This document shows, piece by piece, positions 33,238 to 48,006 of a stretch of 64,000 bases of DNA. The notes below the pieces were generated by a model. The model was not told where the DNA came from and did no database searches. It worked only from the letters and a program-made list of their open reading frames with translations. The position numbers and the translations under genes were made by a program. Each line of letters starts with the position of its first letter. Position 1 is the stretch's first letter. The stretch covers positions 3,614,823-3,678,822 of the forward strand of contig NZ_CP036265.1 of NCBI RefSeq assembly GCF_007743815.1, read 5' to 3'. Source of the DNA: Alienimonas californiensis (GTDB lineage: Bacteria > Planctomycetota > Planctomycetia > Planctomycetales > Planctomycetaceae).

Positions 33238-33450
33238 TCCGTTCGCAGCCCGCCCCGGCCTTCCCCCGTCGTCCCCTCTCGGGAGAGGAATCCGCCGGGT
33301 CCGGTCGGGAGGCGAGGCGTGCGGATGCTGTGAAGAACCGGTGTGGGAATCGCGGGGATTGGGTTGCGGACGGGCGCCCGCGGACGGACAAGGCCGTCGC
33401 CCGCAGTTCCCCCCGCCGGTTTCGCTCCCGTTCCGCCCGCGTCCCCCCCG

Positions 33451-34842
33451 GTGACCGATTCGCCCCCGCCGCGGCCGGTTGCGGTGGCGTGGACCGGCAC
33501 ACTGCCGTGGGCGGTCCCGGTGGCGATCGCGGGGCTGGGGCTGTCCTCGGACTCGCCCGCCTGGCGGGCGGCGGCGGCGGCGGGAATGCTGCTCGCGGCG
33601 GCGGCGGCGGCCGTGTGGCAGGTCTTCGGCCGCTATCGGCGGGATCGGGAACTGGCGGAACTGGCCGAGCACCTCCGCCGCGGCACCTCTTCTCCCCTCC
33701 CGCTGCTGCCCCCCCACGAGCCGGAGCCGGACCTGCGGGACGCCGTCCGCAGCGTCGCCCGCCGCGCCCGCCGCACGGATGCCACGGTGGTCGAACTGGC
33801 GGAGGACCGCGACCGTCTGTTCGCCGCCCTGGAAGGTATGAGCGAGGGCGTGCTGGCCGTGGACGGGGCGGAACGGTTGCTGCTGGTGAACCGCTCCGCC
33901 ACGGCCCTGCTGCGGTTGCCCTTGGGGGAACTGAAGGGCCGCCGGGTGTGGGAGGTGGTCCGCCGCAGCGCCGTCACCGACGCCTGCGAGGCCGTGCTGG
34001 GCGGGGCGGGGCGGTACGAGGCGGAGTTCGAAGTCGGCTCGGCGACGCTGGCGCTGCGGGCCGACCCGCTGCCCGGCATCGCCTCGGCGAAGGGCGCCGC
34101 GGGTGCCGTGCTGCAGGTTCGGGACGTGACGGACCTCCGCCGGCTCGAGTCGATGCGGCGGGACTTCGTCTCCAACGTCTCCCACGAACTGAAAACGCCG
34201 ATCGCCGCGATCAGCGCCCTCGCCGAGACGCTGCTGGACGGCCCGCTGGAGGGCCCGCCGATCGCCCGGCGGTTCCTGAAGGACATCGAGAACCACGCCG
34301 ACCGACTGCACGATCTGGTGGTGGACGTCATCCGCCTGGCCCGGGTGGAAAGCGGGCGGGACGTCTTCGACGTCCGCCGGGTGCCGGTCGGCCCGGCGGT
34401 GGAGGAGGCCCTGCGGGGCCTGCGGGCCGCGGCCGTGAAGGCGGGGGTGCAGCTGTCGTCCGTCCCGCCGCCGGAGGCGGCCCACGTGCGGGCGGACGCG
34501 GACGCCCTGATCACGATTTTGGACAACCTGCTCACCAACGCCCTCCGTCACACGCCGGCGGGCGGCCGGGCGACGGTCGAGTGGTTCCCCGATCAGGTCG
34601 ACGACCGACCCGTCATCCGGCTGCGGGTGATCGACACTGGCGAGGGCATTCCCCCGGAGCACCTGAACCGCGTGTTCCAGCGGTTCCACCGCGTCGACCC
34701 GGCCCGCAGCCGCGAGAAGGGCGGCACCGGGCTGGGGCTGGCGATCGTCAAACAGATGGTCGCCGTCTTCGACGGCGCCGTCGCCGTGGAGAGCGAACCG
34801 GGCCGGGGGGCGACCTTCACCGTAACGCTCCCCGCGGCCTGA
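33451..34842 (+). CDS. phoR: Phosphate-regulon sensor histidine kinase PhoR
   Basis: 463 residues from GTG 33451; an in-frame GTG at 33343 would add 36 low-complexity residues. Two hydrophobic N-terminal segments, then a PAS-like domain (EGMSEGVLAVDGAERLLLVN). HisKA H245 is in NVSHELKTP, and the HATPase_c domain has DNLLTNALRHTP, DTGEGIP, GGTGLGLAIVK and GRGATFTV. It phosphorylates PhoB when phosphate is scarce. Assignment as PhoR rests on the following phoU and phoB genes. phoR itself has no convincing Pho box directly upstream. Confidence 0.88.
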   Translation: MTDSPPPRPVAVAWTGTLPWAVPVAIAGLGLSSDSPAWRAAAAAGMLLAAAAAAVWQVFGRYRRDRELAELAEHLRRGTSSPLPLLPPHEPEPDLRDAVRSVARRARRTDATVVELAEDRDRLFAALEGMSEGVLAVDGAERLLLVNRSATALLRLPLGELKGRRVWEVVRRSAVTDACEAVLGGAGRYEAEFEVGSATLALRADPLPGIASAKGAAGAVLQVRDVTDLRRLESMRRDFVSNVSHELKTPIAAISALAETLLDGPLEGPPIARRFLKDIENHADRLHDLVVDVIRLARVESGRDVFDVRRVPVGPAVEEALRGLRAAAVKAGVQLSSVPPPEAAHVRADADALITILDNLLTNALRHTPAGGRATVEWFPDQVDDRPVIRLRVIDTGEGIPPEHLNRVFQRFHRVDPARSREKGGTGLGLAIVKQMVAVFDGAVAVESEPGRGATFTVTLPAA

Positions 34843-34858: not shown

Positions 34859-34902
34859 GGCCTACCGCCAGGGGCGCCAGGTTCAAGTCCCCGGGGGGTC
34901 TC

Positions 34903-34945
34903 CTTCACGGAAACTTCGCAAAACTTTGATCAAATGCGGTAGGAT
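34903..34945 (+). promoter_or_regulatory. Candidate Pho box and -10 upstream of phoU
   Basis: Three 7-mers at 11-bp period: CTTCACG (34903), CTTCGCA (34914) and the weaker TTTGATC (34925). TAGGAT (34940-34945) follows nine bases later as a -10. PhoB boxes are direct 7-bp repeats with 4-bp spacers that replace the -35, as this layout shows. The same motif precedes phoB and pstS. Confidence 0.7.
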
Positions 34946-35045
34946 GAGCACTGGTCAGGAACGTACGATTCGTCCTGCCGGCCCGGTCGCGCTCGTTGGC
35001 CCCGCGACCGCCTTCTCGCCCCCCCTTTGCATTGGACTGCCCGTT

Positions 35046-35840
35046 ATGTCGCTCTCTCTCAGCCGAGACATGGAGGAGACCCATCGTGACATCCTCACGA
35101 TGTGCGCGCTGACTGAGGAACTGGTCGGGGCGGCGGTCGACGGTCTGGGCGGGACCGGCGGTCTGGCGACGCAGCTGAAGGCCGCGGACAAGCGCGTCGA
35201 CTGGTACGACGTGCAGGTCGAGGAGCGCTGCCTGCGGGTGCTCGCGCTGCACGCCCCGGTGGCGGAGGACCTGCGTCGGGTCGTGTCCGTGTTGAAGATC
35301 GCGAAGGAACTGGAACGCGTCGCGGACCTGGGCGTCCACATCGCGGAGCGAGCCGATCACGCCGCCGCCGCGGCCGCCGCCGCCCGCGAGGCCGGCGAGG
35401 CCCGGCCGGTCGGGCTCAGCGATCTGCCCGCGTTGAAGCGGGTCCGGCAGACGGCCGGGGTGGCGCTGGACATGCTCCGTCGCAGCATTGACGCCTACGT
35501 CGATCTCGACCCCGCCAAGGCCCGGGCGGTGTGCGCCGACGACGACATCGTCGACGGCCTGAACCGGGAAACGCTCGACGAGATGACCGCCGCGATGCGG
35601 GCGAACCCCGCCGCGGTCGACGCCGCCGTCGGGCTGTTCAACGTCTCCCGCCATCTGGAGCGGATCGCCGACCACGCGACCAACATTGCCAAGGACGCGA
35701 TCTACCTCGTCGAGGGGCAGATCGTGCGGCACCGCAAAAAGTTCCCGGACCGCCGGGCCGGCGAAACGGCGGAGGAACGGTTCGGCCCCGCCGATTTACA
35801 GATCCCGCATCCGGATTCCTCGCTCGCCGTCGCGTCCTGA
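35046..35840 (+). CDS. phoU: Phosphate signalling protein PhoU
   Basis: 264 residues from ATG 35046. Two three-helix PhoU halves: RDMEETHRDILTMCALTEEL with RVVSVLKIAKELERVADLG, then DMLRRSIDAYVDLDPAKA with VSRHLERIADHATNIAKDA. The paired E-x-x-R-[IV]-A-D motifs are diagnostic. PhoU links the PstSCAB transporter to PhoR and keeps the kinase inactive when phosphate is plentiful. It is about 30 residues longer than E. coli PhoU because of an Ala-rich linker after RADHAAA. It lies between phoR and phoB with its own candidate Pho-box promoter. Confidence 0.93.
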   Translation: MSLSLSRDMEETHRDILTMCALTEELVGAAVDGLGGTGGLATQLKAADKRVDWYDVQVEERCLRVLALHAPVAEDLRRVVSVLKIAKELERVADLGVHIAERADHAAAAAAAAREAGEARPVGLSDLPALKRVRQTAGVALDMLRRSIDAYVDLDPAKARAVCADDDIVDGLNRETLDEMTAAMRANPAAVDAAVGLFNVSRHLERIADHATNIAKDAIYLVEGQIVRHRKKFPDRRAGETAEERFGPADLQIPHPDSSLAVAS

Positions 35841-35869
35841 CCGTTTCAGGCTGACCGGCGGAGGGCGGG

Positions 35870-35898
35870 CTTCTCCAAACCTTCACAGGTTCTTCACG
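35870..35898 (+). promoter_or_regulatory. Candidate Pho box upstream of phoB
   Basis: Three direct repeats at exact 11-bp period: CTTCTCC (35870), CTTCACA (35881), CTTCACG (35892), with AAAC and GGTT spacers. It lies 32 bp before the phoB ATG. GATGCT (35919-35924) is a possible -10. It would give phoB autoregulation. Confidence 0.75.
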
Positions 35899-35930
35899 CC
35901 CCGCCCTCGTCTTTCGGGGATGCTGGCCCC

Positions 35931-36632
35931 ATGCCCCGCAGGACCATTCTGATCGTCGAGGACGAACGCAGCCTCGCCGAAGTGCTCGCCTACAACCTGG
36001 AGTCGGAAGGTCACGAGGTGCACGTCGCCCGGGACGGCCGGGACGGACTCTCCAAGGCCCGGGCGCTGCTGCCGGACCTGATCGTGCTCGATCTGATGCT
36101 CCCGGTGATGGACGGGCTGGCCGTCTGCCGAGAACTTCGCAGCGACGCCCGCACCAAAGGCGTGCGGGTGCTGATGCTCACGGCGAAGGGGGAGGAGGTC
36201 GACGAGTTGGTCGGTTTCCACATGGGGGCGGACGACTACGTCACCAAGCCGTTCAAGATGAAGCCGCTTGTGGCCCGAGTTCGCAGCCTGCTCCGCCGGC
36301 CGGACGCCGAGGAAGCCGAGGCGGACAAGGTTTCCGGCGCCGGGTTAGAAGTGGACCGTGAACGGCACACCGCGACCGCCGGGGGGGAGGACCTGAACCT
36401 CACGCCCACGGAGTTCCGCCTGCTCTGGACGCTGATGCGGCAACCCGGGCGGCCGTTCAGCCGGCATGAACTGATGGACGCCAGCCGCGGCGGCGACGCT
36501 AACGCCCTGGAACGCACCATCGACGTGCACGTCCGCAGCCTGCGGCAGAAGCTCGGCGATCGGGCGGAAACCGTGGAGACGGTCCGCGGCGTCGGCTACC
36601 GCTTCAACGAGAACGCCGTCGCCGCGGACTGA
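35931..36632 (+). CDS. phoB: Phosphate-regulon response regulator PhoB
   Basis: 233 residues. Receiver domain with acidic pocket E10/D11, phospho-acceptor D54 (VLDLMLPVMDG), T84 region and K106 (DDYVTKPF). The C-terminal winged-helix domain has LTPTEFRLLWTLMRQPGRPF, and RTIDVHVRSLRQKLG with RGVGYRF, typical of OmpR/PhoB. It binds Pho boxes as a dimer on tandem 11-bp repeats, which matches the repeats seen upstream of phoU, phoB and pstS. It is 90 bp after phoU. Confidence 0.92.
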   Translation: MPRRTILIVEDERSLAEVLAYNLESEGHEVHVARDGRDGLSKARALLPDLIVLDLMLPVMDGLAVCRELRSDARTKGVRVLMLTAKGEEVDELVGFHMGADDYVTKPFKMKPLVARVRSLLRRPDAEEAEADKVSGAGLEVDRERHTATAGGEDLNLTPTEFRLLWTLMRQPGRPFSRHELMDASRGGDANALERTIDVHVRSLRQKLGDRAETVETVRGVGYRFNENAVAAD

Positions 36633-36751
36633 GCGGCGGGCGAGGGGGCGCTGGGCGATACGGCGATCCATCGGGAACTGTTTGCCCATGGGCGTCGGGC
36701 CGATTAGCCTTCCCGGTCGCGTTCAACTCGTTCCTGCGAAAGTCCGGCCCG

Positions 36752-38218
36752 ATGTCCAGTTTGAAACGGCGTACGTTCCTCCAGGCGACCGGCGCCGCCG
36801 TCGCGCTTTCCGGCGTGCGGTCCGCCTCCGCCCGCACGGCGGCGAACGAGGAGATCGGCATGGGCCTGATCGGCGCCGGCGGCCGCGGCGGACAGGTCAG
36901 CGGGGGCTTCAAGAAGCTTCCGGGGGTGAAGTTCGTCGCCGTCGCCGACCCGGACGAGAGCCGGGCCAAGAAGCTCGCCGGCTCGCTGGGGGCCGAGAAG
37001 GTTTACACCGACCTGCGCAAACTGCTGGACGATCCGGCGGTGGACGCGGTGATCATCACCACCTGCAATCACTGGCACTGCCTCGCCGCGGTCTGGGCGA
37101 TGCAAGCGGGCAAGGACGTCTACGTCGAGAAGCCGCTGTCCCACACCCAGTGGGAAGGCCGTCAGGTCGTCAACGCGGCCCGGAAGTACGACCGCATCTG
37201 CCAGCTCGGCACCCAGCAACGGAGCGATCCGATGCAGACCGAGATCAAGCAGTTCCTCCACGAGGAGAAGGCCCTCGGCGAGATCGAGTACGTCCAGGCG
37301 AACCGCTTCGGCGTCCGCGGCCCCATCGGCAAGCGGGAGAAGCCGCTGGAGATCCCGAAGGAGGTCGACTACGACCTCTGGCTCGGCCCGGCCCAGGAGG
37401 AACCGCTGTACCGCAGTAACCTCCACTATGACTGGCACTGGGACTGGAACACCGGCAGCGGCGAGATGGGCAACTGGGGCGTCCACGTGCTGGACGACGT
37501 CCGCAACGTCGTCTTCCAAGACGAAGTCACCCTGCCGACCCGCATCGTGGCAACCGGCGGTCGCGTCGGCTGGGACGACGCCGGCGACACGCCGAACGTC
37601 CACTACGCCTATTTCGACACCGGCAAGATTCCCACGATCATCGCCCTGAGCAATCTCTGGTCGAATCCCGACACGAAGAAGGGCAGCTGGTCCTCCCGGG
37701 CCGGCCGCAAGGTCAGCGGGCCGGGCACCGGCTACGTCGTGACCTGCGAGGGCGGCTCCTACGTCGGCGGTCGCGGCTCCGGCACAGCCTACGACGCCGA
37801 CGGCAAGGAGATGCGGAAGTTTAAGGGCGGCGACATGGACCGCATCCACTTCCAGAACTTCCTCGACGCAGTCCGCTCCCGGAAGAAGGAAGAGCTGCAC
37901 GCGGAGATCGAGGTCGGCCACCACTCGACCGGCTGGTGCAATCTGGCCAACGTCGGCTTCCGGGCCGGCGGGGAAGTGCCCGGCAAGGGCGCCGCGAATC
38001 TGGACGTCGGCACCGACGTCTGGCCGAAGGTGCTGGAGGAGATGGCCGCCCAGCTCAAGCCGTTCGGCGTCCGCCCCACGGACGACGTGATCCACACCAG
38101 CCCGATGCTGACCCACGACCCGGAAACGGAACGCTTCACCGGCGAACACGCCGAGGCCGCCAACGCGTTCCTCAAGCGGAAGTACCGCGACGGCTTCGTC
38201 GTGCCCGAAATCGGCTGA
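36752..38218 (+). CDS. Tat-exported Gfo/Idh/MocA-type oxidoreductase
   Basis: 488 residues. Tat signal: R6-R7 in LKRRTFLQATGAAVALSG. Rossmann segment GMGLIGAGGRGGQ, then VKFVAVADPD. The family catalytic motif E126-K127-P128 occurs in VYVEKPLSH. The second domain has the planctomycete-type NWGVHVLDDVRNVV and a C-terminal HHSTGWCNLANV. Predicted to be an exported NAD(P)-dependent dehydrogenase of sugars or inositols; exact substrate is unknown. Planctomycetes hold dozens of such paralogues. It is a single gene ended by a hairpin with a T-tract. Confidence 0.88.
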   Translation: MSSLKRRTFLQATGAAVALSGVRSASARTAANEEIGMGLIGAGGRGGQVSGGFKKLPGVKFVAVADPDESRAKKLAGSLGAEKVYTDLRKLLDDPAVDAVIITTCNHWHCLAAVWAMQAGKDVYVEKPLSHTQWEGRQVVNAARKYDRICQLGTQQRSDPMQTEIKQFLHEEKALGEIEYVQANRFGVRGPIGKREKPLEIPKEVDYDLWLGPAQEEPLYRSNLHYDWHWDWNTGSGEMGNWGVHVLDDVRNVVFQDEVTLPTRIVATGGRVGWDDAGDTPNVHYAYFDTGKIPTIIALSNLWSNPDTKKGSWSSRAGRKVSGPGTGYVVTCEGGSYVGGRGSGTAYDADGKEMRKFKGGDMDRIHFQNFLDAVRSRKKEELHAEIEVGHHSTGWCNLANVGFRAGGEVPGKGAANLDVGTDVWPKVLEEMAAQLKPFGVRPTDDVIHTSPMLTHDPETERFTGEHAEAANAFLKRKYRDGFVVPEIG

Positions 38219-38230
38219 AACGGAACCGTC

Positions 38231-38266
38231 ACGCCGAGGCTCCGCGGAGCCTCGACGTTATTTTTA
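38231..38266. terminator. Palindrome family A copy with T-tract
   Basis: Stem CGAGGCTCCG/CGGAGCCTCG plus an outer ACG/CGT closing after one G-T pair, then TTATTTTTA. The inner C-to-T change is compensated by G-to-A relative to the copy at 24476. It lies between convergent genes, and its T-tract includes the stop of the minus-strand gene. Confidence 0.8.
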
Positions 38267-39550
38267 CCCGCCGCTTTCGATCCGCACCTGCGAGGCGTGT
38301 TCGCTGGCCAGTGCGCGGGTGCGGACGTCGAGGAATGCGGCTTCCTCGGCGGGGCTCATGACCAGTTGGCGGCGGGCCATGACCGTTTTGGCGATGGCGA
38401 GGCCGCGGGCGGCGTCGTAGCGGTCGACCGTCAACTCGCCCCCCGTCGAGTCCAGCCAGGCGAAGGAGGGCGTGAACTTCGGTGCCGCCGGGCCGACCAC
38501 GCTGCTGCAGAATCCCATCACGGCGCCGGTGGGGAAGCTCACGTTGATGCCCACCTTGCTGTGGTCGCCGATCGTGGGGCCGACGAACATCCGCCCGCTG
38601 TCCACGTCGCGGCCGTTCAGCGGGACGCGGATGCGGCCGTAGGTGTTCTTCAAATCGCTGGCGACCACGTCGGCGGCGACGTTCACGAAGCTGCCGACGA
38701 CCGCGTGGCCCAGGAAGCCGTCGTGCTGCTTGTTGCTGTAGGGGTGGAAGATGGACGCCTCCAGTTCCCCGCCGATCTTGCAGACCCGGCCCACGGTGCA
38801 GCCTTCGTGCACCACGGCGCCCGGTTGGAGCAGGGTGCGGTCGCCGAGGTAGCAGGGGCCCTCAATGAAACTGTGCGGCTGGATCGTGCAGTTCTCGCCG
38901 ATCCAGACCGGCCCCTCGGTCGCGTCGATCACCACGCAGGGCTTCACCACGGAGCCGGCCCCGATGTGGATGTCCTCCCCCAATAAGTGCGAACCGGGGT
39001 GAACCGTGCCCCGCACGCCGGCGCCGGGGGAGCCGTCCTCCCAGTCGGCCCGCAGCAGGGCGTCGTTGTGGGCGACCAAGTCCCAAGGGTACGCCATCAG
39101 GGTGACGTCCTCGGACACGTCCTCCCGCGGCACGCCGGCGAGCAGCGCTTCGATCCGCACCTCGTTCAGCATCGTTTTGGGGGAAAGCGCCGCGGCGAGT
39201 TCGGCGTCCGCACGGATGCAGGCGATCGCCGAGCCGACTGTGCCGACCCACGGCGCCGGCCGCTCCAACTCCGGCAGCCGCCGCCACCAGCCGCGGGCGC
39301 TCAGCAGGAGCGAGCCCGCCGCCAGCGGTTCGTTGACCGGGCGGTCGGTGCGTTCGCGGGTCAGTTCGGCGAGGTGCGGCCGCACCCATAGACCGCATTC
39401 GGCTGGCAGCCCGGCGTCGGCGACGCGGCGTTCGGTCCGCTCCCGCAACGTCTGGGCGCCGCATAGCAGTTCGCCGACGCTCCGCAGGTAAACCAACGGC
39501 AGCAGGCGGAGCCAGCGGGGGTCCTCGAACAGGGTGACGGGCGCGCTCAT
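38264..39550 (-). CDS. GlmU-like putative sugar nucleotidyltransferase
   Basis: 428 residues from ATG 39550 (MSAPVTLFEDPRWLRLLPLV). The N-terminal half matches the 'putative sugar nucleotidyltransferase' group that starts with 'LFED--w--L-PL---R'. The C-terminal half is a left-handed beta-helix with hexapeptide repeats: HIGAGSVVKPCVVIDATEG, GENCTIQPHSFIEG, GDRTLLQPGAVVHEG, then VAADVVASDLKNTYG. In relatives this joins nucleotidyl transfer to acyl-transferase-like domains in cell-envelope sugar metabolism. A longer frame to 39592 lacks an RBS. It is convergent with the oxidoreductase gene. Confidence 0.85.
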   Translation of the reverse strand: MSAPVTLFEDPRWLRLLPLVYLRSVGELLCGAQTLRERTERRVADAGLPAECGLWVRPHLAELTRERTDRPVNEPLAAGSLLLSARGWWRRLPELERPAPWVGTVGSAIACIRADAELAAALSPKTMLNEVRIEALLAGVPREDVSEDVTLMAYPWDLVAHNDALLRADWEDGSPGAGVRGTVHPGSHLLGEDIHIGAGSVVKPCVVIDATEGPVWIGENCTIQPHSFIEGPCYLGDRTLLQPGAVVHEGCTVGRVCKIGGELEASIFHPYSNKQHDGFLGHAVVGSFVNVAADVVASDLKNTYGRIRVPLNGRDVDSGRMFVGPTIGDHSKVGINVSFPTGAVMGFCSSVVGPAAPKFTPSFAWLDSTGGELTVDRYDAARGLAIAKTVMARRQLVMSPAEEAAFLDVRTRALASEHASQVRIESGG

Positions 39551-39578
39551 CGGCGCACCATACCATTGGACGCAAACA

Positions 39579-39645
39579 CGCCCCGACCCCACTGCGGGGC
39601 CGGGGCGTGCGCGTCTTGCCAGACGTCTGCGGGGCGTCGCCCCGC
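39579..39645. terminator. Two GC hairpins between minus-strand genes
   Basis: 39579-39607 pairs CGCCCCGACCCC with GGGGCCGGGGCG (one mismatch, 5-nt loop). 39629-39645 is GCGGGGCG-T-CGCCCCGC. They follow the secreted protein gene on the minus strand and are likely its terminator. Confidence 0.5.
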
Positions 39646-39653
39646 GACCGGGT

Positions 39654-41360
39654 TCAGAACCCCTGGGCGCCGCCCTGCAACGCGGTGCCGAACTCGACCA
39701 CGTTGCGGACCTGCTCCGCCGGGATCACCCCCTCGACGACGATCGTTTCGCCTTCGACGCGGAGGACGAACGCGGCGTAGCTGTTCTCGATCTGCACGCC
39801 GCGAACCTGCTCCGCGGGGAAGAGCGGCGGGAACATCTCTTTCTCAATCGCCATCGCCAGGCCGGCCTGCGCCACGCTGGCGAGGTCGATCGCTCCGAAC
39901 ACGTTGCCCTGCTTCGGCAGCATGGCTCCGACGGTTGTCAGGGCCTCGTTCGTATGATCGCTGGCGCCGGTGGCGTGCGAGACGACCTCTTCGACGAAGG
40001 CGTCGCCGCCGCCGTTGATCTGCAGGACGGCGTCGTCGGTGAAGCCGATCATCTGTTCCTGACCGGCCTCGCCGAACATCGTGCGGAAGGCCTTCACGGC
40101 CGCCTGGGTCTGCTCCGTGTCCTCCACGGCCTCCAGGTCGGTGACGTACTTCTGCAGCGTGATCCCGCCGACCTCCATCGTGCCGGCCTCTTCGATCGTG
40201 GTGCGGAGGCCCTGCTGTTCCATGCCGTCGGCGGCCTGCAGGTACTTCTCGATCGCGGGCTTGGCGGCGGCGACGTCCTTGACGGTCGTCACTTGGGCGC
40301 CGGTCAGCAGCGACTCGCCGCCCAGTTGGAAGCCGCCGGCGGTCGCGGTCATGCCGGCCTTCGCCAGTGCGGCGACGATCTCACGCTGCGGGGCCTGCTC
40401 CTCCGTCGTGAGCATGGACTGGACGAGCCGGAGCAGCGGTTGGAAATCGCCTTCCATCGCGATGTAACCGTCCATCCCCTCCGGCAGCCGGGCGAGGGTG
40501 TCGAACGACTTGGGCGACTGCTTCGCCAGCACGGCGGCGATTCGCGAGTTCGGTTTGAAGGCGGACAGCTTCTTGACCGACAGGGCCTCCTCCGTCGCCT
40601 TGAAGCCGACGACGGTGCTGCCGGAATCCTTCAGCAGGCCCACGAGGGCGTCGATCGCCTGGGCCTGGGAGGCGGCGGTCTCCGCGTTGGGGGCGCTCTC
40701 GGCGGCCCGGTCCTTGGCGCCGGCGAGGCCTTCCTCAAGCTGATCGCCGTAGACCTCCAGCAGACGCGGCACGTTGATCGCCAGGGCCACGTCGTGGTCG
40801 GCGGCGATCTCCGCGGCGCCCTCCGGCAGGCTCTTGACGAATCCGCCGCCTTCGCCGAAGGCCTCCAGAACCTCTTCGCCGGCGTCGGTGTAGGCGACGT
40901 AGGTGCCGATCACCTTCAGCTTGATCCCCGGCCCGAGGCCGGTTTCCATCGCCTGCACGTTGGCGGCGGGCAGCAGGTAAACGGTCGCGGGCTCCGCGTT
41001 TTCACGGGGAATGCCGACGATGTACCAGGGCTCCTTCAGGTTCACCCCGGACAGCGTCGCGTTCTTCACGCTCATGCCCAGCAGGCCGCGGCCCGCGATC
41101 ATCTGGGGGGCGTACTGCGGGGCGGCGTTGCGGACGAACGCCGTCAGGTGCGTCAGGGCGCTGTCGGGGTCCTTGATCCGCACCACCACGCCGGCGTCCG
41201 CGGGAATCAGGGTGGCGGCGTCGGCGACGAACGGATCGGCGGCGTCCCCGCCGGTGGGCGGCAACTCCTGACCGTGCGCGGGGACGGACAGCGCCGGAAC
41301 GAACAGCAGCGCCGCGGCGAGCAGCGCCAGCGGGGGGCGGGACGGGAGCGGACGAAACAT
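39654..41360 (-). CDS. Secreted protein, DUF3352-like, function unknown
   Basis: 568 residues. Signal peptide LALLAAALLFVPALSVPAHG. The mature protein starts with ATLIPADAGVVVRIKDPDSAL, the pattern 'P-D-a-x-v-x-v-rikd' seen in DUF3352-like planctomycete proteins, and has repeated strand-helix units. Two stretches, FVRNAAPQYAPQMIAGRGLL and MVGF-like segments with MTTEEQAP, suggest an internal duplication, but I cannot align it with confidence. It is presumed periplasmic or surface-located. It is transcribed alone, ended by hairpins. Confidence 0.8.
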   Translation of the reverse strand: MFRPLPSRPPLALLAAALLFVPALSVPAHGQELPPTGGDAADPFVADAATLIPADAGVVVRIKDPDSALTHLTAFVRNAAPQYAPQMIAGRGLLGMSVKNATLSGVNLKEPWYIVGIPRENAEPATVYLLPAANVQAMETGLGPGIKLKVIGTYVAYTDAGEEVLEAFGEGGGFVKSLPEGAAEIAADHDVALAINVPRLLEVYGDQLEEGLAGAKDRAAESAPNAETAASQAQAIDALVGLLKDSGSTVVGFKATEEALSVKKLSAFKPNSRIAAVLAKQSPKSFDTLARLPEGMDGYIAMEGDFQPLLRLVQSMLTTEEQAPQREIVAALAKAGMTATAGGFQLGGESLLTGAQVTTVKDVAAAKPAIEKYLQAADGMEQQGLRTTIEEAGTMEVGGITLQKYVTDLEAVEDTEQTQAAVKAFRTMFGEAGQEQMIGFTDDAVLQINGGGDAFVEEVVSHATGASDHTNEALTTVGAMLPKQGNVFGAIDLASVAQAGLAMAIEKEMFPPLFPAEQVRGVQIENSYAAFVLRVEGETIVVEGVIPAEQVRNVVEFGTALQGGAQGF

Positions 41361-41585
41361 CAGGGACCTTCTGGGAGGTGACGGGCGGGGAGGTGACGGG
41401 GCGTCAGGATGCGGTCACGCCGACCGGGGGCGAACGCCGTCCGCCGCCGACCGGTTCAGCCAATCCTACCGGACGGCAAGATTCTCCCGATCGGGAGAAC
41501 CCCCACTGCTCGCCGGGAGCGAAATGCGACTCCCGAAACGGGTAAACTCACGCCGTTGCGTCCTCCCCCCGCTGAAGGCTGTTCC

Positions 41586-42962
41586 ATGTCCGCCCCCGCC
41601 ACCCGTCGTTCGTTCCTCGGCGCCGCCGCCTCGGCCGCCGTCGCCGGGCCGCTCGTCTGCCGGCAGTTCGCCTTCGGCCGCCCCAGCGCCGCGGACAAGA
41701 TCGCCGTCGCCGTCCTCGGCCTGGGCAATCAGGGGTTCAACGACACGAAGGCCTTCCTGCAGAACGCCGACTGCCGGGTCGTCGGCGTGTGCGACGTGAA
41801 CACGGCCTCGCACGGTTACCGCGACGCCAGCCAGTTCTGCGGCCGCGAGCCCGGCAAGAAGCTGGTGGACGACTTCTATAAGGAGACCGGCTCCGGCTGC
41901 TTCGCGGAGGCCGATTGGCGGAAGGTCGTCGGCCGGAAGGACGTCGACGCGATCGTGATCGTCACGCCGGATCACCATCACGAAGCGCAGACGATTGCCG
42001 CCCTCGAAGCCGGGCACGACGTGTACTGCGAGAAGCCGCTGAGCTGGTCGGTCGCCGAGGGCCGGCGGATGGTCGAGGCCGCCGAACGCACCGGCCGCGT
42101 CACGCAGACCGGCAGCATGCACCGCAGCGAGAAGGACGCGGTGAAATTCGTGGACTTCGTCCGGGCCGGCGGGGTGGGCGACATCCAGGCGATCACCACG
42201 TTCATCGCCCCCAACAACGCCGTCGGCCCCGGCCCCGGCTGGACGCCGGACCCGATTCCCCAGGGCTTCGACTACGCCGCCTGGCTCGGCCCGGCGCCGA
42301 AGGTCCCGTACCACAAGGATCGCTGCTTCTACCGGTTCCGCTTCGTCTCGGACTACAGCGGCGGGCAGATCACCAACTTCGGCGCCCACAGCAACGACCT
42401 CGCCGGCTGGTGCCTGGGCGAGCCCGAACCGGTCGCCGTGGTTCCGATGGAGGCGACCTACCCGGAGCCGGGCTCGCTGTTCAGCACCGCGGAGTTCAGC
42501 CGGTATCGCTTGGAGTTCGCCGACGCCCCGCCCGTCGTCTGCCAGACCGACGACCGCAAGTTCGGCCTGCGGGTGGAGGGAACCGACGGCTGGGCCGAGC
42601 ACGGCTACGGCGACGCCCGGTTCTCCTCCCCGGCGCTCCAGAAGGCGTTCCAGGCGTTCGCCGCGGCGGAGGGGACCTCGCTGGCTCACCCCTCGCTGAC
42701 CCTGCCGACGGACTCCGCCCGGCTGGACAACCACGTCGCCGACTTCCTCCGCTGCGTGAAGACGCGGGAGACGACCGTCGCCCCGCTGGCGAAGGGGCAC
42801 TACACCGCCAAGCTGTGCCACCTCGGCTCGCTCACGCTGGGGCTGAAGGACGGCTACGGCGAGCGGTTCGCCTGGGACCACGACGCCGAACGCTTCACCG
42901 CCGCCCCCTCCGCCGATCTGCTGGCCGAAGCCAACCGCCGGCTCGACCCGCGGGGGGCGTGA
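41586..42962 (+). CDS. Tat-exported Gfo/Idh/MocA-type oxidoreductase (second)
   Basis: 458 residues from ATG 41586. Tat signal R7-R8 in TRRSFLGAAASAAVAG. Rossmann segment KIAVAVLGLGNQGFND and VVGVCDVNTASHGYRD, then E149-K-P in VYCEKPLSWSV. The C-terminal domain has the conserved NFGAHSNDLAGWCLGEP and a DNHVADFLRCVKTRE tail. It is a different subfamily from the paralogue at 36752-38218, with only motif-level similarity. Substrate is unknown. It precedes the azoreductase-like gene by 96 bp on the same strand. Confidence 0.88.
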   Translation: MSAPATRRSFLGAAASAAVAGPLVCRQFAFGRPSAADKIAVAVLGLGNQGFNDTKAFLQNADCRVVGVCDVNTASHGYRDASQFCGREPGKKLVDDFYKETGSGCFAEADWRKVVGRKDVDAIVIVTPDHHHEAQTIAALEAGHDVYCEKPLSWSVAEGRRMVEAAERTGRVTQTGSMHRSEKDAVKFVDFVRAGGVGDIQAITTFIAPNNAVGPGPGWTPDPIPQGFDYAAWLGPAPKVPYHKDRCFYRFRFVSDYSGGQITNFGAHSNDLAGWCLGEPEPVAVVPMEATYPEPGSLFSTAEFSRYRLEFADAPPVVCQTDDRKFGLRVEGTDGWAEHGYGDARFSSPALQKAFQAFAAAEGTSLAHPSLTLPTDSARLDNHVADFLRCVKTRETTVAPLAKGHYTAKLCHLGSLTLGLKDGYGERFAWDHDAERFTAAPSADLLAEANRRLDPRGA

Positions 42963-43058
42963 CCGCGTCGGCTGCTGGGCGGAGGACCCGTCCGGTGGCG
43001 AGCGGGGGGGCGGGGCCTACGGTTCCTGCCCCCCGACCCTCGTTTTTTCGGAACGATC

Positions 43059-43682
43059 ATGGCCCGCCTGCTTTACGTCGAAGCTTCTCCCCGCAAGCAG
43101 CGGTCGCATTCCATTGCCGTGTCGCGGGCGTTTCTCGACGCCTACCGGGCCGCGAATCCGACCGACACGATCGAGGAACTGGACGTCTTTGCGGAGAAGC
43201 TGCCCCCCTTCGACGGCGACACGATCGCCGCGAAATACGCCGTCATGGGCGGCGAAGACTTCTCGCAGGAGCAGAAGGCCGCTTGGGACGACGTCACCCA
43301 GCGGGGCGAGAAGTTCAAGTCGTTCGATAAATACGTCTTCAGCGTGCCGATGTGGAACTTCGGCATCTCCTACGCGCTGAAGCACTACATCGACTACATC
43401 ACCCAGCCGGGGCTGCTGTTCAAGACGACCGACTCCGGCGACTACGAGGGCCTGTGCAGCGGCCCGGCGCTGGTGATCTGCGCCCGCGGCGGGGAGTACA
43501 ACCCGGCGATGCCCGGCGGCTACGACTATCAGGCCCCCTACATGAAGCTGTGGTGCGGCTTCGTGGGGCTCTCGCCGGAGTTGCTGCTCGTTCAGCCGAC
43601 GCTCAACAACGGCCCGGAGGCCGCGAAACAGGCCCGGGCCGAGGCGATCGAGGAGGCGAAGAAAAAAGCCGCCGAGTTCTGA
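43059..43682 (+). CDS. FMN-dependent NADH-azoreductase-like flavoprotein
   Basis: 207 residues from ATG 43059. It begins MARLLYVEASPRKQRSHSIA, the FMN-phosphate loop of AzoR proteins, with FSVPMWNFGISYALKHYID and PALVICARGGEY as the other two flavin contacts. It is predicted to reduce quinones or azo compounds by two-electron transfer from NAD(P)H in the cytoplasm. Length is normal for AzoR. It is convergent with a cysteine hydrolase gene across a long hairpin. Confidence 0.88.
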   Translation: MARLLYVEASPRKQRSHSIAVSRAFLDAYRAANPTDTIEELDVFAEKLPPFDGDTIAAKYAVMGGEDFSQEQKAAWDDVTQRGEKFKSFDKYVFSVPMWNFGISYALKHYIDYITQPGLLFKTTDSGDYEGLCSGPALVICARGGEYNPAMPGGYDYQAPYMKLWCGFVGLSPELLLVQPTLNNGPEAAKQARAEAIEEAKKKAAEF

Positions 43683-43708
43683 ACCGGTTCCCGGCCTGCC
43701 CTCCTTCA

Positions 43709-43779
43709 GGTTCGCCGTCGCCGTTAGGCGGCGCGGGAGCAACGCGTGACTCCTCGCCGCCTAACAGCGACGGCGAACC
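43709..43779. terminator. 25-bp inverted repeat (repeat family B) between convergent genes
   Basis: Arms 43709-43733 and 43755-43779 match over 25 bp with one mismatch (a G-U pair in RNA), with a 21-nt loop. It is placed as a bidirectional terminator. The right arm plus flank is near-identical to 50795-50823. Confidence 0.75.
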
Positions 43780-43797
43780 GGGGCGGCTCCCTCAGTG

Positions 43798-44415
43798 TTA
43801 TTCGCACGCATCCCAGTCGCGGCGCTTCAGTTCTTCGAAATCGACCTCCGCGGCGTCGAGCACGTTCGCTTTGCAGACGAGCCGCATCTGCTCCAGAGCC
43901 GCCTCGTTCAGTTCCGGGGCGTTCGAGGCGCAGGCGTCCCGCGGGACGACCACCCGGTAGTTCCGCAGCAGGGCGTCGTGGGCGGTCATCAGCACGCAGA
44001 TGTTCCCCGCGATCCCCGTGAGAACCAGCGTGTCCGCCTCCAGATCGCCCAGTAGTTCCTCGAGGACGGTCCGGTAAAACCCGCTGTGCCGCGGCTTGAG
44101 GACGAAGTAGTCGTCCTTGTCCGGGGCGATCAGTTCGGTCAGCCGTTTGCCGCGGCTGCCGTCCCGGGCGGCGTGGTCGAGCGTGGCGGCGAAGTCGCTC
44201 CGCCAGCGGCCGAAGTTGTCGTTCACGTAGATCGTCGGCACGCCCGCGGCCCGGGCCCTGCGCTTGAGGTCCGCGGCCTTTTCCGCGGCGGCCTCGGCGT
44301 GCGGTCGCAGATCCTCCCCCTCGGGGAAATCCAGATCGTTGACGAAGTCGATCAGCAACAGGGCGACGCGGCAGCGGTCGTCGCCGGATGAGGAGTCGGA
44401 GGCAGAGTCGGACAC
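43798..44415 (-). CDS. Isochorismatase-like cysteine hydrolase
   Basis: 205 residues. After an acidic/serine-rich N-terminus it reads VALLLIDFVNDLDFPEGED (catalytic Asp in LLIDF), LKPRHSGFYRTVLEELL (catalytic Lys in LKPRHSGF) and LTGIAGNICVLMTAHDALL, with the nucleophile Cys in NICV. This is the D-K-C triad of the isochorismatase/nicotinamidase-type hydrolases. The natural substrate (nicotinamide, ureido- or maleamate-type amide) cannot be decided. It is cytoplasmic; there is no signal peptide. It is convergent with the azoreductase gene. Confidence 0.86.
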   Translation of the reverse strand: MSDSASDSSSGDDRCRVALLLIDFVNDLDFPEGEDLRPHAEAAAEKAADLKRRARAAGVPTIYVNDNFGRWRSDFAATLDHAARDGSRGKRLTELIAPDKDDYFVLKPRHSGFYRTVLEELLGDLEADTLVLTGIAGNICVLMTAHDALLRNYRVVVPRDACASNAPELNEAALEQMRLVCKANVLDAAEVDFEELKRRDWDACE

Positions 44416-44624
44416 GGGGCGGCGCGGCGGAGTCGGGGGGCGAACGGCCCCACGCTACGGCCAGCGGGGCGATCGCCCTTCGGGAGGGCTCCCCGCCACG
44501 GCGTCAGTCGCTCCCGGTTCACGCCGCCGCGGCCGGTCGGCGCCGCGGCCGGGGCCCGCGCACGGAAAAACGCCCCGGCCGGGGGCGGCGGGGCGTCGAG
44601 CAATCGGTTAATCAGGGCAGCGAC
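44416..44624. other. GC-rich spacer upstream of the cysteine hydrolase and downstream of csrA
   Basis: 209 bp, very G+C-rich, with several overlapping GC hairpins near 44530-44600 that could terminate csrA transcription. I see no gene. Confidence 0.4.
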
Positions 44625-44813
44625 TCAGACGTCGGCGCCGGCCACGTCGCGTTCGCGACGGATGGCGTTGAACACCTCTTCACGATGAACGGAGACGTCC
44701 TTCGGAGCGTCGATTCCCAGCCGGACCTTGTCCCCGCGGATCTCGATCACCATCAGGGTGACGTCCTCTCCGATCATGATCTTCTCGTCCTTCTTGCGGC
44801 TCAGTACCAGCAT
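44625..44813 (-). CDS. csrA: Carbon storage/translation regulator CsrA
   Basis: 62 residues: MLVLSRKKDEKIMIGEDVTL, then the RLGIDAPKDVSVHREEVF block. Key RNA-binding residues L4, R6 and V42-H43-R44-E45 are present. It binds GGA motifs in mRNA leaders and controls translation. A very strong SD (AAAGGAGG, five bases before ATG) and an upstream promoter-like pair are present. No flagellar genes or fliW are adjacent, unlike many other csrA loci. Confidence 0.95.
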   Translation of the reverse strand: MLVLSRKKDEKIMIGEDVTLMVIEIRGDKVRLGIDAPKDVSVHREEVFNAIRRERDVAGADV

Positions 44814-44866
44814 AGCGGCCTCCTTTCGCGGGGCGGGGTGTTTCTAGGTCGAACTGCGCCGTGCGA

Positions 44867-44895
44867 AGTGTACCCCGCTTGACAGCCACTGTCGT
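44867..44895 (-). promoter_or_regulatory. Putative csrA promoter with small palindrome
   Basis: On the minus strand ACGACA (44895-44890) and TACACT (44872-44867) are 17 bp apart, each 4 of 6 to consensus. GACAG-CCA-CTGTC (44881-44893) overlaps the -35. Confidence 0.35.
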
Positions 44896-44971
44896 GGTTG
44901 TTCTCACGAGATTCTCCCGGCCCGGGAGCCTACCCGCGCCCCGCCGCGGGAGTCGGCCGCGACGCCAAAAG

Positions 44972-45985
44972 TCAACGGCGCCGACCCGTGCGGGACCCGG
45001 AACTGCCGGTTCTGCCGCTCCGCCGGCTCTCGGATTCCTCGGCAGACGAAGGGTCCGACCGCTCCATCTCCGGCCGGGAGCCGATGATCCGCACCGCGTC
45101 GCCCACCCGCACGACCCCGCCGTTTCCCCCGCCCCGGCTGCGGCCCAGCGGCCGCGTGTTCACCGCCAGGCGGAAGAAGTGGTCGAATCCCGAGTCCGGG
45201 GCGAACCGCGGCAGCGTGCGTCGCCGGAGGTTCGCGAACTCCTTTTGGAACCCCCGCATCGCGGCCCCGGTGCGGCTGTCGCGGGTCGGCACGACGCACC
45301 GCTGGCAGGCGCCGGTCCCCACGAACCGCCCCTCGCCGGCCCAGAACTCGATCTCCTGCCCCGGCTCCGGCACCAGCCGGTCCTCGGCGAAGGGCTCCGC
45401 GGTGCCGGTGCCCTGGGCCGTCAGTTCGAAGTTCGTCCGGAATCGCCGGCGGACCTCGTCCGGGGGCAGGTCGAACCAGCCGGCGATCGTGGCGATCGTG
45501 GCGGCGGTGATGACCGTCGGCCCGGGGGAGATTTCGTCGTCCGGAAAGCCGGTCCGCTGATCCTCCCGCAGCCGCACCGAGCGGGCCAGCATCCGGGATA
45601 GGAACGCTTCCAACTCCTCGCGGTCGTCGTGCAGGGAGAAGGTCCGCGACCCCGGCCCCGGCTCGCCCCCGCCGCCGTCCGGCTCCGTCGCGGTCCGCGG
45701 GCCGACGGTCACGCACTCCCCGCTGAGGTCGAATCGGGCGGCCACCCGATGCACCCGCGGCTCCCGCTTGCCGTTCACCACGCTGCCGTCCGGCTCGAAC
45801 AGGGCGAACCGGCGGTCCCAGGCCAACGCTCCGCTGGGCAGCACCGCGGCGGCGTCCACCCCGACGCCGTCCAGACTCTTGATGGGGAAGACGGTGATGC
45901 GACCGATGCGCAGTTCCGGCCCGGGCGGGGTGGCGGCGGCTTCCGCGGCGTCGTCGGCGGCGGACCCGGGGGCGGAATCGCTCAT
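44972..45985 (-). CDS. MOSC-domain protein
   Basis: 337 residues. MOSC_N beta-barrel domain: RIGRITVFPIKSLDGVGVD, LAWDRRFALFEPDGSVVNGK. MOSC domain: RFRTNFELTAQG (R-x-N motif), and the conserved cysteine in GACQRCVVPTRDSRTG, likely the molybdenum-cofactor ligand or sulfur carrier, as in YcbX/mARC relatives. The C-terminus after VGDAVRII is a disordered Arg/Ser-rich tail. It probably reduces N-hydroxylated compounds or handles sulfur on Moco. Its ATG overlaps the stop of the upstream small gene by four bases. Confidence 0.88.
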   Translation of the reverse strand: MSDSAPGSAADDAAEAAATPPGPELRIGRITVFPIKSLDGVGVDAAAVLPSGALAWDRRFALFEPDGSVVNGKREPRVHRVAARFDLSGECVTVGPRTATEPDGGGGEPGPGSRTFSLHDDREELEAFLSRMLARSVRLREDQRTGFPDDEISPGPTVITAATIATIAGWFDLPPDEVRRRFRTNFELTAQGTGTAEPFAEDRLVPEPGQEIEFWAGEGRFVGTGACQRCVVPTRDSRTGAAMRGFQKEFANLRRRTLPRFAPDSGFDHFFRLAVNTRPLGRSRGGGNGGVVRVGDAVRIIGSRPEMERSDPSSAEESESRRSGRTGSSGSRTGRRR

Positions 45986-46383
45986 GTTCGCTCTGCGGCC
46001 TCGTCGGGGTCGGCGTGTTCGTCGGGGGCGCTCTCCACGGCGTCCTCCTCCCCCGGTTCTGCCACGAGCCCGCCGTAGCGGGTGAAGACCGCCTCGATTT
46101 GCGGCGCCAGGGCCATCAGCAGCAGATCGTCGCCGGTCCGCAGCCGCCGGTCGGACCCGATTTTGCCCGCCCGGTTCGCCAGCACGACCGCCGCGATGAC
46201 GTGTTCCACGTCCACCGGCCGGCCGGTCCGCTCCTCCAGCGTTTCCGCGAGGTCCAGCAGGGTCTCGGTGAGGCCTTCGTCAACGCTGACTTGGCCCGCA
46301 GGTGTGATCGAAACGCCCTCCGCAACGGGGATCGGATCGTCAGATCCGACGGGCTTATCGATGGGGGGGAGAGGCGAGGCCAT
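45982..46383 (-). CDS. Hypothetical acidic protein
   Basis: 133 residues. The middle (ETLLDLAETLEERTGRPVDV, then EHVIAAVVLANRAGKI) is helical, and the tail is acidic (EPGEEDAVESAPDEHADPDE). No signal or membrane segment. The family is not recognised; similar short acidic proteins are common in planctomycetes. The stop overlaps the MOSC start, indicating one operon. The SRP RNA gene lies just upstream on the same strand. Confidence 0.65.
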   Translation of the reverse strand: MASPLPPIDKPVGSDDPIPVAEGVSITPAGQVSVDEGLTETLLDLAETLEERTGRPVDVEHVIAAVVLANRAGKIGSDRRLRTGDDLLLMALAPQIEAVFTRYGGLVAEPGEEDAVESAPDEHADPDEAAERT

Positions 46384-46471
46384 ACCTCAAGAATAGGCGC
46401 AGGGCGGAGTCTCGCCCAGCGTCCACGGATCGCCGTCAGGGCGTGTTCAACGCCGGCGAAAGAGGGGGGAA

Positions 46472-46564
46472 CGCGCCCCCGGGCACACCCGGACACGACA
46501 CTTAGGGCTGCTCCGGTTAAGGCCTGACCCGGTTCACGACGCGCCCGCCGCACCCGGGGGAGCT
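46472..46564 (-). ncRNA. ffs: Bacterial small SRP RNA (4.5S RNA)
   Basis: On the minus strand the conserved domain IV loop reads GGGTCAGGCC-TTAA-CCGGAGCAGCCC (46529-46503). It has the invariant 5' CAGG and 3' AGCAG sides of the symmetric internal loop that binds Ffh, with a UUAA tetraloop. Flanking sequence folds back, with an 8-bp perfect closing helix CCCCCGGG/CCCGGGGG at 46560-46553 and 46483-46476. Size (about 90 nt) fits the small bacterial type without an Alu domain. A pyrimidine-rich stretch (46470-46455) follows the 3' end. Exact ends are approximate. Confidence 0.85.
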
Positions 46565-46755
46565 CCCGGCTCCCGCCGCGACCGCCTCCTGGGAGGCCGT
46601 CCGGCGGGGTGATGCGATTGGAGGGGCATTGTGTGCCGCCGGACCGAGCGGTCAAGGCGGGCGGGGCGTCGAATCGGTCGGGGCGGCGGATTTCGGGCTC
46701 AACGGGACGGCGCCGCCGCCGACCCGCCGGTCCGGTCGGACCGGCTGGGGCGGAC

Positions 46756-46784
46756 CTGCTTCGCGTCTTCACATATTCTTCGCG
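46756..46784 (+). promoter_or_regulatory. Candidate Pho box upstream of pstS
   Basis: CTTCACA (46767) and CTTCGCG (46778) at 11-bp period with TATT spacer, preceded by the weaker CTGCTTC at 46756. The pstS ATG is 76 bp downstream. TAGGGT (46816) is a possible but distant -10. Confidence 0.7.
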
Positions 46785-46859
46785 CAGTCCCGTGCCCCGA
46801 TTCCCCCGGCCCGGGTAGGGTTCGAGGCGTTCATTTCCCGCACCCTGCGTTCGCCCTCG

Positions 46860-47987
46860 ATGTCGCGCCCGCCGCTTCGCGTACTGCTCGCCCTGTCGCT
46901 CGTCACCCTGACGGCATTCGGTTGCTCTTCCGAGACCGACGCCCTCGACGGCGTCTCGGGCGCCCCGGAGGCGGTCGTGGCGCCGGTCGAATCGGGGAGC
47001 GACCCGTCCGCCGCCGAGACGGCCGCCTTCAAGCCGGCCGGCGACGCCGTTCCGGTCGATGCGGCTCTGCCGACGTACGAGCGCGGCGCCGCCGTCAGCG
47101 GGACGGTCATCTCCAAGGGGTCCGACACGATGCGGGCCGTGATGGACTACTGGGCCGAGGGGTTCTCGGGGTTCTATCCCGGCGTCGACTTCGAGATCGA
47201 ATCGAAGGGGAGCAGTTCCGCCCCGACGGCTCTCATCGAGGGCAGCGCCCTGATCGGCGTGATGAGCCGGCCGATGAAGGAGAGCGAGATCCAGGACTTC
47301 GAGAAGAAGTACGGTTATCCGCCGACCGAGATCCGCACCAGCCGCGACCTGCTGGCGGTGTTCGTCAATAAGGACAATCCGGTCGAGGGCCTGACCCTGC
47401 CGGAGGTGGACGCGATCTTCAGCGCCAACCGCAACCTGGGACTGACGGAGAAGATCGAGCGGTGGAGCCAGGTCGGCGTGGACGGTCCGCTGGCCGATCG
47501 GCCGATCAGCCTGTACGGTCGCAACAGCGCCTCGGGGACGTACGGCTACTTCAAGGAGGTGGCGCTGGGCGACGGCGACTTCAGCAACGCCGTGAAGGAA
47601 CAGTCCGGCACCAGCGGGGCGATTCAGGCGGTGTCCGACGACAAGGCCGGCATCGCCTACAGCGGCATCGGCGGCACGACGGCCGGCGTCCGGGCCCTGC
47701 CGCTCGCCGCCGAGGACGGCGGGGAATACTTCGAGCCGACCGTCGAGAACGCCGATACCGGCGATTACCCCCTCGCCCGCTTCCTGCTGATCTACGTGAA
47801 CAAGAAGCCGGACGCCCCCCTCGAGCCGCTGCCGACCGAATTCCTGAAGTACGTTTTCAGCAAGCAGGGCCAACAGCGGGTCGTGCAGGCGGGCTACTTC
47901 CCGGTCTCGGCGAAGGAAGCCGCCGCCCAACTGGAGAACGCCGGCATCCCGGTCGCCTCCGCGTCCTCCGAAGATGCCGACAACTGA
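46860..47987 (+). CDS. pstS: Phosphate-binding lipoprotein PstS
   Basis: 375 residues from ATG 46860. Lipoprotein signal with C22 in LTAFGCSS. Mature part: GTVISKGSDTMRAVMDYW, SKGSSSAPTALIEGSALIGV, ISLYGRNSASGTYGYFKEV and a C-terminal LPTEFLKYVFSKQGQQRVV. These serine/threonine and arginine segments form the phosphate site of PstS-like periplasmic proteins. It delivers phosphate to PstCA. Preceded by a candidate Pho box; 19 bp separate its stop from pstC. Confidence 0.92.
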   Translation: MSRPPLRVLLALSLVTLTAFGCSSETDALDGVSGAPEAVVAPVESGSDPSAAETAAFKPAGDAVPVDAALPTYERGAAVSGTVISKGSDTMRAVMDYWAEGFSGFYPGVDFEIESKGSSSAPTALIEGSALIGVMSRPMKESEIQDFEKKYGYPPTEIRTSRDLLAVFVNKDNPVEGLTLPEVDAIFSANRNLGLTEKIERWSQVGVDGPLADRPISLYGRNSASGTYGYFKEVALGDGDFSNAVKEQSGTSGAIQAVSDDKAGIAYSGIGGTTAGVRALPLAAEDGGEYFEPTVENADTGDYPLARFLLIYVNKKPDAPLEPLPTEFLKYVFSKQGQQRVVQAGYFPVSAKEAAAQLENAGIPVASASSEDADN

Positions 47988-48006
47988 ACCGTCGGCGATT
48001 GCAGGT

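Follow-up and report, generated by a model that had tools for sequence, protein, structure and literature searches.

Predicted Pho boxes before phoU, phoB and pstS in the planctomycete Alienimonas californiensis

Among the closest described systems, Pho promoters of E. coli place their box 10 bp upstream of a -10 element of the form TAN3T/A (as described in a section of PMC1906773). We analyzed a stretch of 64,000 nucleotides from the planctomycete Alienimonas californiensis (NZ_CP036265.1, positions 3,614,823 to 3,678,822; hereafter the window), contained in a genome of 5,475,215 bases on a single contig, and found short tandem repeats before its phosphate genes phoU, phoB and pstS. Like the E. 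coli PhoB box, these repeats combine tandem direct 11-bp units, predicted pst/pho targets and a PhoB-type regulator, and in part of the family regions also the -10 layout (passages of PMC1906773 and PMC4415409); unlike it, the planctomycete unit reads CTTMACA (M being C or A), where E. coli has CTGTCAT. The initial annotation of this DNA had already set the repeats apart from the enteric type, a distinction that held up: even with three mismatches allowed, enteric CTGTCAT units spaced by 4 nt matched the window 0 times, with 1.55 matches expected by chance.

Two other boxes are closer in sequence. The cyanobacterial SphR box, CTTAACCT (8 bp plus a 3-bp linker), has nearly the same CTTAAC core, the same period and a place in pst promoters (as given in part of PMC1906773). 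It differs in that position 4 of the planctomycete unit may also be C (56% C and 44% A among 89 units) and position 7 is preferably A, and both the phylum and the regulator are different. The Streptomyces PhoP box, GTTCACC, likewise has 11-nt units and a TTCAC core (in the passage on it in PMC4415409), whereas the first base of the planctomycete unit is C rather than G (79% C) and position 4 is C or A. By sequence, the planctomycete unit is nearer to the cyanobacterial than to the enteric box. Waddlia (Chlamydiae) offers a PhoB relative from the Planctomycetes-Verrucomicrobia-Chlamydiae (PVC) superphylum, yet its motif from chromatin immunoprecipitation sequencing, as reported in the portion cited, is 21 bp long, AT-rich, associated with many hypothetical targets, and not the planctomycete box (PMC4989314). 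For planctomycetes themselves, PhoR-PhoB regulation is mentioned as widespread in lacustrine species, in a passage that gives no motif (PMC6461901). No planctomycete Pho box was found in the literature searched, most subscription papers being outside its coverage, so this is weak evidence of novelty. The repeats described here add a predicted Pho box type for Planctomycetota, a phylum that has received little study, to those already known.

Tandem 11-bp units at the Alienimonas phosphate genes

The repeats before phoU, phoB and pstS are very probably Pho boxes used by PhoB (Table 1). Their sites, period, sense orientation and conservation, the -10 spacing in the family and the recurrence in the phylum were computed directly. 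In all three window boxes the units are exactly 11 bp apart and run on the sense strand of the gene behind, and the CTTCAC/CTTCGC-type units were found exactly where the initial annotation had placed them. A matrix of the 11-bp unit was built from 69 units in pstS upstream regions of other genera, with the window and Alienimonas chondri excluded, and was scanned over both strands; the seed CTTMAC was picked after the window had been seen, which leaves the training less than fully independent. Across the window, the two-unit matrix ranked pstS (21.8), phoB (21.3) and phoU (20.6) first to third, followed by overlapping registers at 13.4 and 11.6 and by the next non-overlapping place at 8.9. No first-order Markov window out of 60 scored as high as the third observed site; their maxima averaged 9.4 and peaked at 19.0.

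Conservation was evaluated in a genome of the same genus, A. chondri LzC2 (NZ_WTPX01000021.1). In the alignment of the phoB intergenic region, the units form the best-conserved block (TTCTCC-AACCTTCAC-G-TTCTTC-CGC), and upstream of pstS most of the pair is kept, together with GGGTAGGGTT. In a 15-kb stretch from A. chondri, matrix scores were 20.2 at pstS, 18.5 at phoB and 13.5 at a place at the phoR end. On this evidence the boxes before phoB and pstS are clearly conserved by sequence, and the phoU box weakly. The region upstream of A. chondri pstS (L049) also contains an 11-bp tandem array (GGGACGGAGCC), whose sequence is unrelated to the Pho unit and whose period is equal.

For the mechanism we adopted the head-to-tail arrangement and -35 replacement of known Pho systems. 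Phosphorylated PhoB would sit head-to-tail on the 11-bp units before the three genes, substitute for the -35 element, the -10 hexamer following the last unit at a distance of about 10 nt, and recruit RNA polymerase at low phosphate. The pstS box would then serve pstSCAB and the phoU box phoU, while the phoB box would provide positive autoregulation. PhoB binding, activation and the low-phosphate signal at the boxes are inferred. In the window, a TAN3T hexamer 10 bp past the last unit is found at pstS by way of a degenerate unit; at phoU the distance is 9 nt, again from a degenerate unit, and the phoB box lacks this arrangement, its last unit ending 33 nt ahead of the phoB ATG.

Recurrence before pstS and the position of phoB

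To the family set, 63 pstS upstream regions out of 80 matched rows were admitted. Left out were G036, at the edge of its contig, the second of two G060 matches, a split G040 match, G051 as truncated, and the 13 weakest of all rows (G029:C169 downward); among the regions kept, L069 is clipped and perhaps misplaced, and only 5 bases of L152 could be used. A sense CTTMAC pair at 11 bp was observed in 34 of the 63 regions and an antisense pair in 2. Pairs at spacings of 7-10 and 12-21 bp occurred in 0-3 regions, while a spacing of 22 occurred in 12, as expected from longer arrays. Base frequencies over the 89 units were C 79%, T 98%, T 100%, C/A 56/44%, A 93%, C 82% and A 60%. The consensus unit is CTTMACA, with C or A at position 4, and CTTCRC is its GC-rich local form.

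With downstream units picked without regard to the -10, TANNNT stood at an offset of exactly 10 past the most downstream unit in 16 of 40 family regions and at other offsets from 0 to 39 in at most 3; the runner-up, offset 32, corresponds to two units further. The strict form, a pair followed directly after 10 nt by TANNNT, was present in 8 of the 63 regions. When exact 6-mer repeats before pstS were counted without a seed in the same regions, 11 bp was the most frequent distance (102), with 39 of these coming from the one A. chondri tandem array. Outside the array the leading 11-bp words were TCTTCA, CTTCAC, TTAACA, TTCACA and CTTAAC.

For the phylum, we used 28 of 30 fetched pstS regions, all from other families (the two left out belong to the window's family; L290 is clipped). 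Seven of these 28 have a sense pair at 11 bp and three an antisense pair, with none at spacings of 7-10 or 12-19. Six of the seven sense pairs are followed by TA 10 nt later, three of them by TANNNT. CTGTCA and GTTCAC pairs at spacings of 8-14 were absent from all 28 regions. As a control, 40 upstream regions of other genes were searched on either strand and none had an 11-bp pair; these were well-scoring DUF1559 copies from one listing rather than random genes, and L362 was shorter than the others. That one box type could serve as a planctomycete Pho motif, as proposed at the outset, is supported by the A. chondri conservation and by the family (34/63) and phylum (7/28) counts, with the unit refined to CTTMACA.

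In 29 of 35 contigs, chosen by eye, phoB lies 3,570-4,561 nt behind pstS on the same strand. This spacing is consistent with a pstSCAB-phoU-phoB run, as judged from coordinates rather than gene-by-gene annotation, and autoregulation there would therefore go via the pstS box. In these many relatives, with phoB 3.6-4.6 kb behind pstS, the pstS box alone may suffice. The six exceptions are the two Alienimonas, in which pstS is found ~10 kb downstream of phoB, and G006, G018, G043 and G054, which are otherwise arranged. In Alienimonas, phoR-phoU-phoB and pstSCAB stand apart, and each part would have boxes of its own. Of 30 phoB loci, solely those of the two Alienimonas have, no more than 100 nt from the phoB start, a pair matching at 11 or 12 of its 12 positions. 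The phoB box looks like a local feature that arrived with the separation of the two parts. The autoregulation implied in the initial annotation would use this box in the two Alienimonas.

Specificity and competing explanations

The bare box pattern is not specific, and specificity arises with the fuller motif. In the window, the one-mismatch pair pattern has 4 matches, with a shuffle mean of 2.24 and 21 of 100 shuffles reaching 4. Across the 5.48-Mb genome, the exact CTTCRC pair occurs 17 times versus 6 for the reversed control, a looser pair 54 versus 40, and a three-unit pattern with up to two mismatches 23 versus 28, which is no excess; nowhere in the genome but at the phoB site do three units match without any mismatch. 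When the 54 looser matches were given partial scores, phoB came second and pstS fourth, while rank 1 (L010) falls in a repeat stretch and rank 3 inside an open reading frame (ORF). In 61 family genomes, exact CTTCAC pairs numbered 84 versus 47 for the control, and six of the 84 are in pstS upstream regions. Twenty other CTTCAC pairs with AT-rich linkers were selected by eye. Mechanically called ORFs cover 14 of them (one in the G008 phoB contig), two precede DUF1559 genes and are also matches to the full pattern considered below, and the others have no clear target. The frequency check before unrelated genes suggested in the initial annotation was run in part, with a favorable outcome for the 40 DUF1559-copy upstream regions (0/40).

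Several matches were tried as regulon members and rejected. Nine exact CTTCRC pairs out of the 17 are within ORFs called with confidence, and five of six further high-scoring genome matches also lie inside ORFs; the sixth (L376) falls within an over-long ORF, but its cation-efflux domain begins downstream, and it was kept as a candidate only. The pairs at L010 and L011 were rejected as lying in two related, perhaps mobile stretches where TTTCACA recurs. These non-coding stretches (L010 ~1450-1700 and L011 ~1440-1660; G000:C1 near 3573974 and 3609390) hold TTTCACA/CTTCAC copies in both orientations. The L010 stretch adjoins an ATPase-like ORF without a Pfam match, and the L011 ORF matches only DUF3072, at 19.8 bits (cut-off 27.5). 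Located just upstream of the window, both are perhaps iterons of related mobile elements.

A number of results weigh against the interpretation of the repeats as Pho boxes used by PhoB. There is no clear phoB -10 at 10 or 20 nt and none conserved with A. chondri, and the phoU and pstS sites of the window attain their -10 spacing solely via degenerate units. The phoU box block is kept in A. chondri, but its units are degenerate there (CTTCCT, CTTCTC) and the site scores 9.3, fifth in the 15-kb stretch; in the home genome its partial score of 14.4 is only about 15th of the 54 looser matches. At the threshold used, 29 of the 63 family and 21 of the 28 phylum pstS regions have no pair. Without the A. 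chondri array region, the seed-free count at 11 bp (63) is only slightly ahead of those at 6 bp (59), 23 bp (56) and 21 bp (49), with 26 of 62 regions contributing at 11 bp, 22 at 6 bp and 23 at 23 bp, and the case was therefore rested on the seeded counts. Bare patterns have little or no genome-wide excess, and PhoB and PhoR are both under the NCBIfam equivalog cut-offs.

Three other explanations were weighed. If the repeats were CTTC-rich 7-mers of a GC-rich genome that happen to lie near Pho genes, a one-mismatch window count within chance and the 14 of 17 exact genomic matches elsewhere would be as expected. This chance reading is already contradicted by the family pstS counts, the matrix ranks (over 11 bits ahead of any place that does not overlap) and the control upstream regions, and with the A. 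chondri conservation and the recurrence in family and phylum at an exact 11-bp period with strand bias, we give it almost no credence. It is quite improbable that the boxes bind a different OmpR-family regulator with another signal, with pst/pho merely among its targets. Such a regulator would fit the 36 genomic matches of PhoB, which point to many related regulators, the PhoB score under the equivalog cut-off, and the same promoter pattern before DUF1559 genes of relatives, which are not known as Pho genes. Yet the box is found directly before the Pho genes phoU, phoB and pstS, and across many families of the phylum it precedes pstS; the closest solved relative of the DNA-binding domain of the locus regulator is E. 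coli PhoB, and the box layout equals that of known Pho promoters.

The remaining explanation keeps PhoB as the binder and changes what it does: at some promoters, likeliest at phoB, the boxes would be repressor or accessory sites rather than -35 substitutes. The absence of a -10 where one would be expected after the phoB box and the 33-nt interval to the ATG argue for this; planctomycete -10 elements may, however, be degenerate, and the phoU and pstS sites do have TAGGAT and TAGGGT. We regard it as unlikely, and continue to read the repeats as Pho boxes from which PhoB would activate transcription.

The two phosphate loci and a possible DUF1559 arm

In the window, the phoR-phoU-phoB and pstSCAB clusters are separated by other genes (Table 1). 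TIGR02154 is the best-scoring model for the presumed box binder, whose 235.9 bits fall below the equivalog cut-off of 296.2. The nearest PDB structure to its DNA-binding domain is that of E. coli PhoB, and the protein has 36 matches in its own genome at E ≤ 0.001. A longer pstS ORF is excluded in A. chondri by an in-frame stop just upstream. The N-terminal extensions encoded in 47974-52677 bring PstC to 934 amino acids, with weak beta-propeller matches, and PstA to 610. Divergent to pstS is a bacterial small signal recognition particle (SRP) RNA (RF00169, 46469-46564, minus strand, 42.8 bits, gathering cut-off 40), beside which lies a sigma70-like TTGACC-16-CACAAT (46655-46628, minus strand). 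Immediately before the phoU box, positions 34873-34900 resemble a transfer RNA (tRNA) T-arm (GGTTCAAGTCC); a tRNA 3' end there (~34880) was ruled out, as ARAGORN gives no tRNA in the window.

Table 1. Predicted promoter elements and genes of the two phosphate loci in the window
Feature	Position	Strand	Basis or remark
phoR-like sensor histidine kinase gene	33343..34842	+	HisKA, HATPase_c; best NCBIfam PnpS/PhoR, under equivalog cut-offs
Predicted Pho box before phoU, units 1-2, CTTCAC ggaaa CTTCGC	34903..34919 (units 34903, 34914)	+	sequence; matrix rank 3 in window
Possible degenerate third phoU unit, TTTGAT, 11 bp on	34925..34930	+	sequence; TGATC kept in A. chondri
Predicted phoU -10 hexamer, TAGGAT	34940..34945	+	9 nt past degenerate unit; TATGAT in A. 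chondri
phoU	35046..35840	+	TIGR02135, 159.4 bits (cut-off 130.25); PF01895
Predicted Pho box before phoB, CTTCTC caaac CTTCAC aggtt CTTCAC	35870..35897 (units 35870, 35881, 35892)	+	matrix rank 2 in window
phoB-like OmpR-family response regulator gene, presumed box binder	35931..36632	+	best NCBIfam TIGR02154 PhoB
Predicted Pho box before pstS, units 1-2, CTTCAC atatt CTTCGC	46767..46783 (units 46767, 46778)	+	matrix rank 1 in window
Possible degenerate pstS units 3-4, CCCGTG (46789) and ATTCCC (46800), same 11-bp period	46789..46805	+	sequence; equal spacing in A. chondri
Predicted pstS -10 hexamer, TAGGGT	46816..46821	+	10 nt past degenerate unit 4; GGGTAGGGTT identical in A. chondri
pstS, ATG start	46860..47987	+	TIGR02136, 219.8 bits (cut-off 206.6)
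pstC, long N-terminal extension	47974..50778	+	TIGR02138, 197.4 bits (cut-off 196.45)
pstA, long N-terminal extension	50845..52677	+	TIGR00974 over cut-off
pstB	52718..53686	+	TIGR00972 over cut-off

Searching the 61 family genomes with the full pattern TTMAC-N5-CTTMAC-N10-TANNNT gave 16 matches versus 4 in the reversed control, so about 4 of the 16 are expected by chance. Four matches precede pstS (G008, G014, G034, G057), and seven sites precede six DUF1559 genes in five genomes (two genes in G025, one gene with two sites in G032, and one gene each in G034, G037 and G040), at 73-481 nt upstream of the ORF starts. One further match stands before a HEAT-repeat protein gene (G022) and one before an arginine decarboxylase-like gene (G030), and the remaining three (G002, G013, G057:C10) have no clear meaning. 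PF07596 was over its cut-off in all six DUF1559 proteins, covering only the first 55-110 of 268 positions in those of G025:C8, G037 and G040. The family is large, with 23-96 matches per genome in the 14 genomes searched, yet 0 of the 40 sampled copies had a box.

The GFTLIELL codons of DUF1559 genes include CTTCAC (as in L003) and were checked as a possible confound; the sites counted here lie upstream of the ORF starts, at the distances given above. Mechanically called ORFs in other frames still overlap three of the seven: at L314 a sense ORF of up to 452 amino acids, at L315 a sense one of 211 and an antisense one of 125, and at L318 an antisense one of 63. In scored gene calls, the six fetched sites, one per gene, were all intergenic.

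Full-length similarity marks the DUF1559 proteins of G025:C8, G037 and G040 as orthologues, with 43-54% identity across 423-457 positions. At this conserved locus, shared by three genera, giant HEAT/WD40 proteins are encoded behind all three, in G025 after an HTTM/VKGC gene. The protein at the G022 match is homologous to the G025 HEAT/WD40 protein (37% over 943 positions). These proteins begin with what looks by eye like a zinc ribbon, for which Pfam exceeded its cut-off only in G022 (PF13240, 25.1 versus 25). Overall, L324, L328, L329 and L331 encode related planctomycete HEAT-repeat proteins; Pfam gives WD40 in three of the four, and an orthologous DUF1559 gene precedes three. The end of a PHO4-family phosphate transporter gene lies ~1.2 kb upstream of the G032 site. 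The Alienimonas genome itself has a four-unit 11-bp array, ATTCAC/CTTCGC/CTTCAA/GTTCCC (L376, G000:C1:1096901-1096939), upstream of cation-efflux and DUF1559 genes, with no -10 at 10 nt.

From these promoter matches we lean slightly towards a Pho regulon with a lineage-specific planctomycete arm, in which PhoB would drive certain DUF1559 genes (SBP_bac_10, a family of pseudopilin-like surface proteins) in addition to pst/pho. Nine DUF1559 genes are described as up in cold and salt shock, with heat shock also mentioned, in a passage of PMC2754498, and N_methyl/SBP_bac_10 proteins as expanded and recovered mostly in detergent-soluble fractions in part of PMC8567305. If true, such an arm would be a first regulatory handle on DUF1559 function, for example in the surface binding or scavenging of phosphorus compounds, and would point to phosphate as a possible connection for this huge uncharacterized family. 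The promoter model, CTTMACA units at 11 bp, 10 nt and TANNNT, may allow planctomycete phosphate-responsive genes to be predicted from sequence alone, and the recurring repeats make the planctomycete phosphate response directly testable.

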